Part shown: positions 24,851 through 63,987 of the stretch, piece after piece | Numbering within the stretch: the stretch's first letter is position 1 | How the letters are laid out: each line of letters opens with the position of its first letter | Origin: Desulfoluna sp. | GTDB taxonomy: Bacteria > Desulfobacterota > Desulfobacteria > Desulfobacterales > Desulfolunaceae | Length of the DNA stretch: 64,000 nucleotides | Direction of reading: 5' to 3' | NCBI RefSeq assembly: GCF_030145185.1 | Contig: NZ_JAQYWB010000024.1 | Coordinates: 1-64,000 of the forward strand | Notes under the pieces: model-generated | The model's database searches: none | What the model saw: the letters and a program-made list of their open reading frames with translations, nothing else | Told to the model about the DNA's origin: nothing | Position numbers and translations under genes: made by a program

Positions 24851-25009
24851 AAAAACAGCCTCCGGCGGCGAGGTGAGCCACCTCGAAAGCGGATTGCGAA
24901 TGCTCCCGCCCCTCGTTCCTCGGGTCGATCACATTCGCTGCGGGCTTCGCTCATAAACAACACCTTTGATTTCCCGTAGCAAAAAGCGACCCACCGGAGG
25001 CCTTTTTTT
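24849..25009 (+). repeat. Dispersed repeat, copy 1 (after ubiX)
   Basis: The left end is A6-CAGCCTCCGGCGGC, fused to the ubiX stop; the right end is CCACCGGAGGCC-T7. Inside are a GAGGTGAGCCACCTC palindrome and a GCGAATGC / CACATTCGC pair. The right end also carries the Shine-Dalgarno and TTG of the next gene. Confidence 0.8.
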
Positions 25010-60344: not shown

Positions 60345-60535
60345 GTAACTATTCAGCTCTTGAAAAGCAGCCTCCGGCGGCAAGGTGTGCCACCTTGAAA
60401 GCAGGTTGCGGATGCGCTTTGTCCCTCGTTCCTCGGGTCAAATCACATCCGCCTTCAAAGATAAATTCATCGGGTCAACTCATAAAAACCTGTTTGTCAA
60501 ACTTTTCAAAAGTTTGGCCCCCGGCAGGGCCGCCA
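60345..60535 (+). repeat. MITE-like element C, right end lost
   Basis: It begins GTAACTATTCAGCT and runs colinear with element B (AGCCTCCGGCGGCAAGG, TGTGCCACCTTGAAAGC and CCTGTTTGTCAAACTTTTC). The right GGAGGC and GCTGAATAGTTAC end is replaced by another repeat copy. Confidence 0.75.
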
Positions 60536-60664: not shown

Positions 60665-61465
60665 TCACACTCTCCCGCGCAACACCTCTTCAGCCAGAAA
60701 ACGAATCACCGAAGGGCCGGAAAGAGCCTGAGCCGAGAGGCCTTCTCCCCCGGCCAGGCCCTGAAAACAACGGAGGGCGTCCTCGTCCGCCAGGACGATT
60801 TTCTCCGGAACCCAGCGCAGGGTGTCCTCCTCAAGATTGTACACGACAAAGGGGCCGAACCCGTCGCCCCCTCTCTCATCTTTCGAGAACCGGCCCCGGA
60901 TATGACAGTGATCCATCCGCAAGGTTCCGGGAGCCGGCAAAAGCCCAAGCAGCTCCCCAAAAAGAGCGAGGCTTTCAACCACGGCATCGGCATCTTTCCA
61001 CTCCACGGCGGCCCGGCCTTCATACTCCAGCTGACGAATATCTTCCTCACAAAAGGAGAGATCCAGCCGGGAGAGCCCTTCCTGGTAGACGGTCTCCACC
61101 GATGTTTCTTTTCGGCTGACCAGCACATCCGCGTCATTTAATATGCGCATGGCATTTCGAATGCTGATCATCTCCTTTAAGGTCGGCTCTTTCCGCAAGG
61201 CCACATCCCCCACGGTGGTGTGGTAAGCCGGGAGATCGTTGTCCAGCACAAAAATGGTCTGTACCTCGTCATCGGCGGTGCCTTCACGCAGATAGAGCTC
61301 CAGCCCCCGAAGCGGCAGGCACCGGAACCCGGCAGACAAGAGCAGCGCTTTCATGGCTTTTTTATCGACGTGGCAACCGCTGCCCACCGGCCCCAGGGTA
61401 GAAAGGACCCGCTGTCTCCGCTGTCCCATCGCTATTTTTTTTAAAAGAATCTCTTTAAACGGCAT
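60665..61465 (-). CDS. Unknown protein coupled to a transposase-derived gene
   Basis: A 266-residue soluble protein that I do not recognise. It has no signal peptide or membrane segment. The N-terminus is basic (KKIAMGQRRQRVL); the middle shows alternating beta and helix patterns with several Asp/Glu clusters (EGTADDEVQTIFVLDNDLP); His and Cys pairs are few (MDHCHIRGRF). Its ATG overlaps the end of the RAYT-like gene by 11 bases in another frame, so the two are translated together. Co-conservation would be the best clue to a joint function. Confidence 0.6.
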   Translation of the reverse strand: MPFKEILLKKIAMGQRRQRVLSTLGPVGSGCHVDKKAMKALLLSAGFRCLPLRGLELYLREGTADDEVQTIFVLDNDLPAYHTTVGDVALRKEPTLKEMISIRNAMRILNDADVLVSRKETSVETVYQEGLSRLDLSFCEEDIRQLEYEGRAAVEWKDADAVVESLALFGELLGLLPAPGTLRMDHCHIRGRFSKDERGGDGFGPFVVYNLEEDTLRWVPEKIVLADEDALRCFQGLAGGEGLSAQALSGPSVIRFLAEEVLRGRV

Positions 61466-62462
61466 GGGGACTCTCGTCTCCGGGAGCTCTCTGTCCGTTC
61501 ACGTAGACCGGAAAAGAGATGGATTCGAGAAGTTCCCGGCGCCTCGTCCCCAGGCGTCCGCGCTTCAGGTAGGTGCGTTGCATCTGGACCCAGTACCTCA
61601 GGCCGTCGTAATGGGGTGCATTCTTGGGAAAGCGAGCCGACCCATTCGTGGCCACAAAGGTCTGGTATGCGTCATAAAAGCCCATCCACGCCGCATCGGT
61701 CAGCAACGCCTTCTTTTGCCGTCTTCGGCTGCGTTTTCGGGCACTTTCGATTTTTTTGTCGTCCACTTCCCCGCAGGAGGGACGCACCACACGCGCCGCC
61801 ATCTCCGCCACGGCCTCCCCGAGGCAACTTCGGGCCGACTCCCATGATCTCATTCCCGTCAGCTCCCGATAGGCCTTCCGACACGAGCTGTCTCCGGAAT
61901 CCGCCAGGAAAAGCGAAGAAAATACCCCCGTATCGGGCTCTCCATGGGGCCGTGTGTGAAGATATCCGGCAAACCGCGTGCGCACCTCCGGGGAATCCTC
62001 GAGCAGATAACTTCGAAACCTCTGACGCCAGACCAACCCGCGACGCCCGTGCTGCCGGTTTGAATACCGAGAAAACCGAGGCTGAAACAGACGGGCATAC
62101 TCCAGAATCGAGTGCATCTTCTTCAAATAGCCCTTAGAGAGCGAGACAAACTTCTTTCTCTCTTTCACCCCCGCACTCACCAGGGCCTCGGCCGCGTCAT
62201 CGCCATACCAGAGAGCGACCCGCCGACTCAACTCTGCCTCATCCACCTCGCCCGGTGGGTAGACCCGAACCAACGCCCCATACCCCCTGGGCGTCACATG
62301 CCAGCACAACCGTTCCACCCCACAATACTCTGCTGCATCTGCCATTAATTCGACGAGTTCCTCTTGCGCTTCCAGGCTCAAGTCCGGCAAATCCAGCGCG
62401 ATCTCGTTGCTGATGGCGTACAGCGCCACCTCTCCCTCCAGCATCAAACGCAATTCTCGCAT
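61455..62462 (-). CDS. REP-transposase (RAYT)-like protein lacking HUH, with helicase-associated domain
   Basis: A 335-residue protein. Residues about 10-200 follow the Y1/RAYT transposase pattern (EYCGVERLCWHVTPRGYGALVRV, split about 47-69; FSRYSNRQHGRRGLVWRQRF). The two metal-binding His of the HUH motif (normally NHxH) are replaced by RGYG, so nicking is unlikely. Residues about 260-320 match a helicase-associated domain (WMGFYDAYQTFVATNGSARF, GLRYWVQMQRTYLKRGRLG). The start ATG at 62462 has AGGAG six bases upstream. It lies behind a strong promoter and looks domesticated. Confidence 0.72.
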   Translation of the reverse strand: MRELRLMLEGEVALYAISNEIALDLPDLSLEAQEELVELMADAAEYCGVERLCWHVTPRGYGALVRVYPPGEVDEAELSRRVALWYGDDAAEALVSAGVKERKKFVSLSKGYLKKMHSILEYARLFQPRFSRYSNRQHGRRGLVWRQRFRSYLLEDSPEVRTRFAGYLHTRPHGEPDTGVFSSLFLADSGDSSCRKAYRELTGMRSWESARSCLGEAVAEMAARVVRPSCGEVDDKKIESARKRSRRRQKKALLTDAAWMGFYDAYQTFVATNGSARFPKNAPHYDGLRYWVQMQRTYLKRGRLGTRRRELLESISFPVYVNGQRAPGDESPHAV

Positions 62463-62642
62463 CACAGGCTCCTTTTCTGGTTTCTATGAACAAGCAGACA
62501 GATGAAAACGTTGACTTGCTGCGATCTCTCCCTGGCCAACAAAGCCCCCAAAAGGGGGCATTCGTCCATCCAAAACGCATCGGGTTTGTACCGACGCCAG
62601 GATTCTTTACGTGAAACGGATTAAAAAAAGGAGGGCAGCAGG

Positions 62643-62660
62643 ATAATTAACCATAATTAT
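62643..62660 (-). promoter_or_regulatory. Operator-like palindrome over the RAYT operon promoter
   Basis: ATAATTA-N4-TAATTAT, perfect 7-bp arms, overlapping the -10 box. Confidence 0.55.
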
Positions 62661-62682
62661 GTGAATAAATGTATTTTGTCAA
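62654..62682 (-). promoter_or_regulatory. Promoter of the RAYT-like operon
   Basis: Consensus TTGACA (62677-62682), 17-bp spacer, TAATTA (62654-62659) on the minus strand. Confidence 0.65.
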
Positions 62683-62819: not shown

Positions 62820-62890
62820 CACAAACCGGCTTTCAAGGTGGTTTGTGCTACTTTGGTTTCGCCACCTTGCCACCGGCGGGAGACTTTTTC
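62820..62890 (-). repeat. Dispersed repeat, copy 11, at the RelA/SpoT gene end
   Basis: Minus strand AAAAAGTCTCCCGCCGGTGG, then CAAGGTGGCG, a 16-base insertion and CCACCTTGAAAGCCGGTTTG. It provides the last codons and the stop of the gene. Confidence 0.7.
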
Positions 62891-63987
62891 TCTGAGGGCC
62901 CTGTTTTTTTAGCCACGGAAGGCTGTTTTTTTTCTGCATGCCCGTTCTCGTGACCATTCTCATGCACGTTCTCATGCCTGTTCAACCAGGCATCAAATCG
63001 ATCTCTTTGATCGTTATACAAAATACGCTGATACCGATCATTGTCTTCCTTGTACAGCAGATGCCTAATCACCATGTAGGGGTTCAGGGCATGGCGCTGG
63101 GTATCATTTTGCCCCAGGTACTGCTTGTAGTCATCCACCGTCTGATAGCTGGCATCGACGATGGCCTTAAACCGACTCGGAGAGAGGTCCCCATAGTCCA
63201 CCAGCTCCAGGACAAACCCGTCGACCTTGTGGGGCTGAAAGCGATAATCAGGAAATTTTTCTTCTGCGATGGCCAGAAAAGAAAAGGCGTTTAACGGTTC
63301 ATCATCCGAGAGTCTGTCCCTTTTCAGCTTCTCTTTTTCTGCTGATTTTATCGTCTCTTCCCGAATGCTGAAGAACTCTCTGTCTGCCAGTTCAAAGAGA
63401 GCCGCGAGGGTGTTAATTCGACGTTTTAAATAAAGAGGAATGGATTTTTTATACTTAATCTTATGGTCCAGAGCGCTCCAGGCGTCCTGAATAATCGTTC
63501 TTATCTGCATCTCAAAGCGAAAGTCATTGTAACGGGAATACTCGCGCATTCCGCGCCGGGGTTCCTTGAGCCTCAGATCGACATGCAGCCCCTTGTATCC
63601 GAAGGAATCCTCTTTGCTCTCCATCGCTTCGATCTTGTCGGTGATCTCGATGAATTCAAACTCTTCGGAGAGAATATCACGAATCCTCACGATATCGGAT
63701 TCATACAGCGAAACAACGCGAAGGCCTATCAAATCTGTAATATGGTCCTTAATTTCATAAGGAATACGGTCTGCTTCAAGCTGGGTCTGATATTTTCTTG
63801 AAAATTTCTTGATGCACTCTTCTTTATCTTTCACTCGGCCTGTGACCGAGGAAATAGGAATATCCTCTGCCAGAATTGAATTAATAATCACAATAAAGGC
63901 GTGCTTGGCGGCTTCAAGCAATTCGTGATTTTCACTGTGATAGTCACGAAAGACCTGTTTCTCTTTCTCAAAATCCAATGATGCCAT
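62848..63987 (-). CDS. RelA/SpoT-type nucleotidyltransferase (alarmone synthetase-like)
   Basis: A 379-residue protein with a (p)ppGpp-synthetase fold at about 40-215: SSVTGRVKDKEECIKKFSRK, ITDLIGLRVV, DSFGYKGLHVDLRL and FRFEMQIRTIIQDAWSALDH. It lacks the hydrolase and TGS/ACT regulatory domains of full Rel proteins, so it is a small-synthetase type with a long helical extension (about 215-335). Near the end is a His/Asn-rich repeat (HENVHENGHENGH). The last residues (SPAGGKVAKPK) are encoded by a dispersed repeat. The gene is complete, with AAGGA before the ATG. Confidence 0.85.
   Translation of the reverse strand: MASLDFEKEKQVFRDYHSENHELLEAAKHAFIVIINSILAEDIPISSVTGRVKDKEECIKKFSRKYQTQLEADRIPYEIKDHITDLIGLRVVSLYESDIVRIRDILSEEFEFIEITDKIEAMESKEDSFGYKGLHVDLRLKEPRRGMREYSRYNDFRFEMQIRTIIQDAWSALDHKIKYKKSIPLYLKRRINTLAALFELADREFFSIREETIKSAEKEKLKRDRLSDDEPLNAFSFLAIAEEKFPDYRFQPHKVDGFVLELVDYGDLSPSRFKAIVDASYQTVDDYKQYLGQNDTQRHALNPYMVIRHLLYKEDNDRYQRILYNDQRDRFDAWLNRHENVHENGHENGHAEKKQPSVAKKTGPSEKKSPAGGKVAKPK

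Follow-up and report, generated by a model that had tools for sequence, protein, structure and literature searches.

The window analysed here, a stretch of 64,000 nucleotides from a bacterium of the sulfate-reducer type, encodes a RAYT-like protein that, judging from its sequence and from a predicted model, is best explained as a catalytically dead, domesticated derivative of the RAYT/TnpA-REP proteins (Y1, HUH superfamily), acting as a nucleic-acid binder and most likely as a regulator. We put the probability of this reading at about 0.62. Lost cleavage with retained binding is the simplest account, given the replacement of the three expected metal ligands and the purifying selection acting on the gene. 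RAYTs are seen as transposases that have been domesticated and whose benefit to the host is unknown. That a clade lacking the metal site is conserved indicates that selection can maintain the RAYT fold for something besides cutting, and such a clade allows a clean test of whether a host gains anything from RAYT-type hairpin binding alone. The features of the locus are collected in Table 1.

Table 1. Features of the RAYT-like locus, numbered from the first letter of the window.
Feature	Position	Strand	Remark
Palindromic repeat copy, downstream, outside the gene's system	60370..60415	(+)	
Adjacent core gene, 266 aa, not part of a dedicated system	60665..61465	(-)	single copy, 50/58 genomes
RAYT-like protein that lacks the metal site and bears an HA domain	61455..62462	(-)	335 aa
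PF03457 helicase-associated (HA) domain	61512..61697	(-)	residues 256-317, E 1.9e-9
Y167-L-H-T-R171-P172: Tyr kept, R171 at the expected Asn (E. coli N119)	61947..61964	(-)	alignment
R59-G60-Y61-G62 (RGYG), aligned to canonical N-H-F-H (HUH)	62277..62288	(-)	alignment
Sigma-70-like promoter TTGACA-N18-AATTAT; palindrome CATAATTATG over the -10	62653..62682	(-)	10/12 matches
Degenerate repeat copy (3 mismatches), upstream, 3' end of the RelA/SpoT-like gene	62863..62880	(-)	

The open frame of the RAYT-like gene (61455-62465, minus strand) has a GTG one codon before the ATG at 62462, and the ATG is backed as the start by the orthologues, in which MREL/MREA/MRES is conserved. By sequence, residues ~10-160 give weak matches to RAYT-like proteins of the same genome (E 1e-6 to 1e-3). 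The AlphaFold2 model, calculated from an alignment of five orthologues (mean pLDDT 78.6), is predicted to adopt the ferredoxin-like HUH fold of Y1 transposases. Its first Foldseek match was 4ER8 (E 2.3e-3, probability 1.00), the E. coli REP-associated tyrosine transposase with a bound REP hairpin, which was also the top VIA-align match (Z 10.9, 154 residues, rmsd 3.2), followed by the IS608, ISDra2 and IS200 transposases (Z 8.6-10). Since 4ER8 comes first in both comparisons and Y1 transposases come next, the RAYT assignment is sound. The RAYT pattern that a sequence-only reading had recognised, proposing structure prediction as a check, is thus borne out by the predicted fold. The attached helicase-associated (HA) domain noticed in that reading is also present: PF03457 scores 38.1 bits against a curated cut-off of 28.4, and this is the sole HA domain found in the genome. 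The C-terminal half of the protein (residues 191-335) is basic, with a net charge of +12, and the added HA domain is probably a DNA-binding domain. HA is a small helical domain that occurs also in the solved putative helicase fragment 2KTA, an example of PF03457. The present protein resembles such HA-domain proteins in carrying HA above the curated cut-off, in one or two copies across the clade, and differs from the helicases among them in that the helicase part is absent and HA is fused to a RAYT fold. The function of the HA domain itself is poorly established, which we count against our explanation.

The metal site was compared in an alignment of 37 canonical RAYTs and the six members of the clade to which the protein belongs. 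All 37 canonical sequences have H-x-H, whereas neither histidine is retained in any clade member, the six having RGYG (three times), RGYA, LGYD and QGYV at this position. In the canonical enzymes the third metal ligand follows the tyrosine at a distance of four residues (N119 in E. coli), and the class 2 signature is Y---NP (Quentin et al. 2018, PMC6006769). Asn occupies this place in 37/37 canonical RAYTs and Arg in 6/6 clade members, so that the Y-[IV]-[DE]-L-N of canonical relatives reads Y-[LIV]-H-T-R throughout the clade; the W/RF core is retained. Motif signatures and alignment suggest that these clade residues are the equivalents of E. coli Y115 and N119. The equivalence rests on motif signatures because profile mapping onto 4ER8 failed, canonical RAYTs having missed 4ER8 with a HMMER sequence profile. 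As far as the alignment can tell, all three expected metal ligands are replaced in every clade member. The replacement of the HUH histidines by RGYG had been seen before from the letters of this gene; the loss is in fact fuller, taking in both histidines and the third ligand in all six homologues.

In its fold, W/RF core motifs, tyrosine position and Y+4 helix position, as well as in its patchy distribution and the absence of IS features, the clade is like TnpA-REP/RAYT (class 2 TnpA-Y1, Quentin et al. 2018; 4ER8). It is unlike them in the replacement of His, His and Asn, in the C-terminal HA domain and in that we detected no REP association for it. Extra C-terminal DNA-binding-like domains on RAYTs are already known from subclass 2.1 (TIRYT-like), whose members bear a helix-turn-helix or DnaA_C-like extension. 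The clade shares with subclass 2.1 a length of about 300-340 aa, an additional, probably DNA-binding C-terminal domain and a lack of REPs near the gene; however, subclass 2.1 proteins keep HUH and Y---N, and their extension is not HA. The intact RAYTs of the genome under study (G000) look like subclass 2.1, as a matter of resemblance only.

The six homologues (this gene and those of G004, G003, G025, G053 and G261) form one clade with a support of 100/100, and all belong to a single order (6/389 genomes sampled). Identity to the RAYT-like protein is 67% for G004, 59% for G003, 33% for G025 and 30% for G053. Among the 84,980 species contigs scanned there were only four relatives, apparently those of G004, G003, G053 and G025; no further members were found at E 1e-25 in a sample of 395 genomes of the phylum, and none on the plasmids or viral contigs scanned. 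HA was found in all five full-length members scanned, in two copies in two of them (G025 is among the HA hits listed). The G261 homologue has no HA domain and may be a shortened copy. Among 30 relatives scanned, HA domains are confined to genomes that carry the HUH-less RAYT clade: in G000, G003 and G004 they occur only in the RAYT-like gene, and in G025 there is in addition one short HA-only ORF (G025:C75:6602-6982, minus strand, L147), which consists of two HA domains. A literature search, of incomplete coverage, yielded no description of a RAYT clade that is conserved, lacks HUH and bears HA domains. Selection could be followed within the genus. Against G004 we obtained dN 0.26 and dS 1.73 (dN/dS ~0.15), and against G003 dN 0.36 and dS 1.85 (dN/dS ~0.19); these ratios are approximate, because dS is saturated in both pairs. 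The differences at codon positions 1/2/3 (79/72/175 for G004, 104/86/179 for G003) show a clear third-position excess. With dN/dS at roughly 0.15-0.2 within the genus, the gene is subject to purifying selection and is not decaying.

These data bear directly on the possibility that the protein is a decaying, functionless remnant of a transposase. The catalytic motifs are lost, the gene is rare in the order and the G261 homologue is truncated; moreover, a survey of the family excluded sequences without the HUH/Y core motifs, judging that they probably have no function (Quentin et al. 2018, PMC6006769). However, a remnant would hardly be expected to leave five full-length open frames, with identities as low as about 30%, in a single clade with the same residues replaced throughout, nor a third-position bias with dN/dS well under 1. 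In one and the same pair of genomes, a core gene changed faster (54% identity) than the RAYT-like gene (66%). We consider decay unlikely. We give about even odds to the wider proposal that the six proteins constitute a new clade of pseudo-transposases that shed the metal site, kept the tyrosine and gained HA, and that serve as sequence- or structure-specific DNA/RNA binders controlling host genes.

The conserved tyrosine raises a different possibility, namely that nucleic acid is still cut or joined through a metal-free or relocated site that uses it. Tyr167, aligned with the Y of canonical YIDLN, is invariant in the six members despite the loss of both HUH histidines and of the Asn, and it is adjoined by two new invariant residues, H169 and R171. 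Residual or altered chemistry could account for its retention, and we count this against our explanation. Nevertheless, Y1 enzymes depend on a metal that is coordinated by HUH and Asn/Gln (PMC6006769, PMC8266576), and the tyrosine is possibly structural. Continued cutting or joining therefore seems improbable to us.

We attach a similarly low likelihood to a role in replication, repair or transposition control, such as that of a dominant-negative competitor to the canonical RAYTs resident in the same genome. Dead transposase relatives can repress active ones, and G000 has several intact canonical RAYTs. However, the branches between the clade and the resident RAYTs are very long (2.35 and 2.76 changes per column), which makes a shared DNA target doubtful.

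The preferred reading, a dead RAYT derivative that binds nucleic acid, leads us to the following scenario. The protein would descend from a RAYT/TnpA-REP protein and would have lost DNA cleavage. Its RAYT domain may still bind a stem-loop or single-stranded element, and the basic linker together with the HA domain could provide a second nucleic-acid contact. The output would be the control of expression, perhaps of its own gene by way of the -10 palindrome and leader hairpins. The consensus promoter with an overlapping palindrome described in the sequence-only reading holds up as a sigma-70-like element (Table 1). This promoter recurs at a similar distance from the G004 orthologue, with about 29/34 bases identical; it is not visibly conserved upstream of the G003 orthologue. 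Between promoter and start codon, the leaders of G000 and G004 contain terminator-like hairpins, few in number and above the shuffled mean. Leader hairpins and a palindrome over the -10 would fit autoregulation or attenuation.

We then considered the gene that follows, which had been proposed as a translationally coupled partner of unknown family; its 266-aa ORF shares 11 bp with the RAYT-like ORF. The lack of a family stands: neither Pfam nor NCBIfam has a family that the protein matches above cut-off, there is no PADLOC match, and a PDB profile search gave nothing convincing. Its model, from a two-sequence alignment, reached a pLDDT of 54, and the Foldseek matches (E 0.8 or worse) are meaningless. 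The dedicated partnership was rejected because the gene is an order-wide core gene: its homologue is present in 50/58 relatives (30-62% identity, about 44 families), mostly without the RAYT-like gene, which occurs in 5/58, and also in a few genomes from other orders of the phylum. The two genes adjoin in two of the five carriers, G000 and G004. About 200 bp separate them in G004, and the 11-bp overlap is therefore peculiar to G000; coupling is seen in G000 only and is not general. In G025 and G053 the two genes lie on separate contigs, the 93% complete assembly of G003, which has the RAYT-like gene, gave no 266-aa match, and the sister genomes G001, G002 and G005 have the 266-aa gene and lack the RAYT-like gene. 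A check for co-occurrence thus went against the pairing, and transcription from the RAYT-like promoter here incidentally runs on into the core gene. In G002 and G005 its neighbourhood is as in G000, and in G001 it stands beside pot genes. The G003 RAYT-like gene adjoins the same putrescine/spermidine-type ABC genes as the 266-aa gene of G001, and this synteny hints at a single old insertion of the RAYT-like gene upstream of the 266-aa gene within the genus, followed by losses. A gene family (F1), which by eye we take to resemble citrate synthase, lies divergently upstream of the 266-aa gene in 14/40 stretches examined. A conserved core gene without a known family is arguably as interesting as the RAYT-like finding.

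The genome is rich in palindromic repeats, as had been stated: the repeat CTCCGGCGGCNAGGTGNNNCACCTNGAAAGC, also written CTCCGGCGGCAAGGTGNNNCACCTTGAAAGC, has 391 copies in G000 against none for a reversed-pattern control, and its stem shows paired A/T and G/C exchanges. Five genomes of the genus carry 251-852 copies of this REP-like repeat, and it is absent from the others tested; in the window, copies lie at 24858, 25653, 27571, 34179, 37385, 39224, 49392, 60370 and 62863. The link drawn between repeat and gene did not survive the co-occurrence check, since the counts do not track the gene: the repeat has 852 copies in G001, 693 in G002 and 258 in G005, all without the gene, and 251 in G004 and none in G003, both with it. 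Co-evolution of the two was rejected on these counts. No copy was found in the stretches around the orthologues of G004, G003, G025, G053 and G261, and seven canonical RAYTs of G000 likewise had none within about 1.5 kb, so that no flanking RAYT driver of the repeat was found. Repeat copies do flank the two genes in G000, as closely as for ~0.5% of random same-size intervals of the window, a post hoc figure for repeats that favour intergenic DNA. With no copies found around the orthologues and genome-wide counts that do not follow the gene, this does not make a REPtron, a gene flanked by its cognate REPs. It is thus very unlikely that the protein reads the palindromic repeats with the 266-aa protein as its partner: the 391 copies, their presence on both sides and the adjacency also in G004 speak for it, but the repeat counts and bare orthologue surroundings, and a core gene present regardless, unlinked in G025 and G053 and missing in G003, speak against it. 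The absence of co-occurrence removes the new repeat-binding two-gene system that had been proposed, and not the protein itself.

Beside the locus, positions 62848-63987 of the minus strand encode a 379-aa RelA/SpoT-domain protein, which may be a stand-alone alarmone synthetase and weakly matches PDC-S33, a PADLOC candidate.
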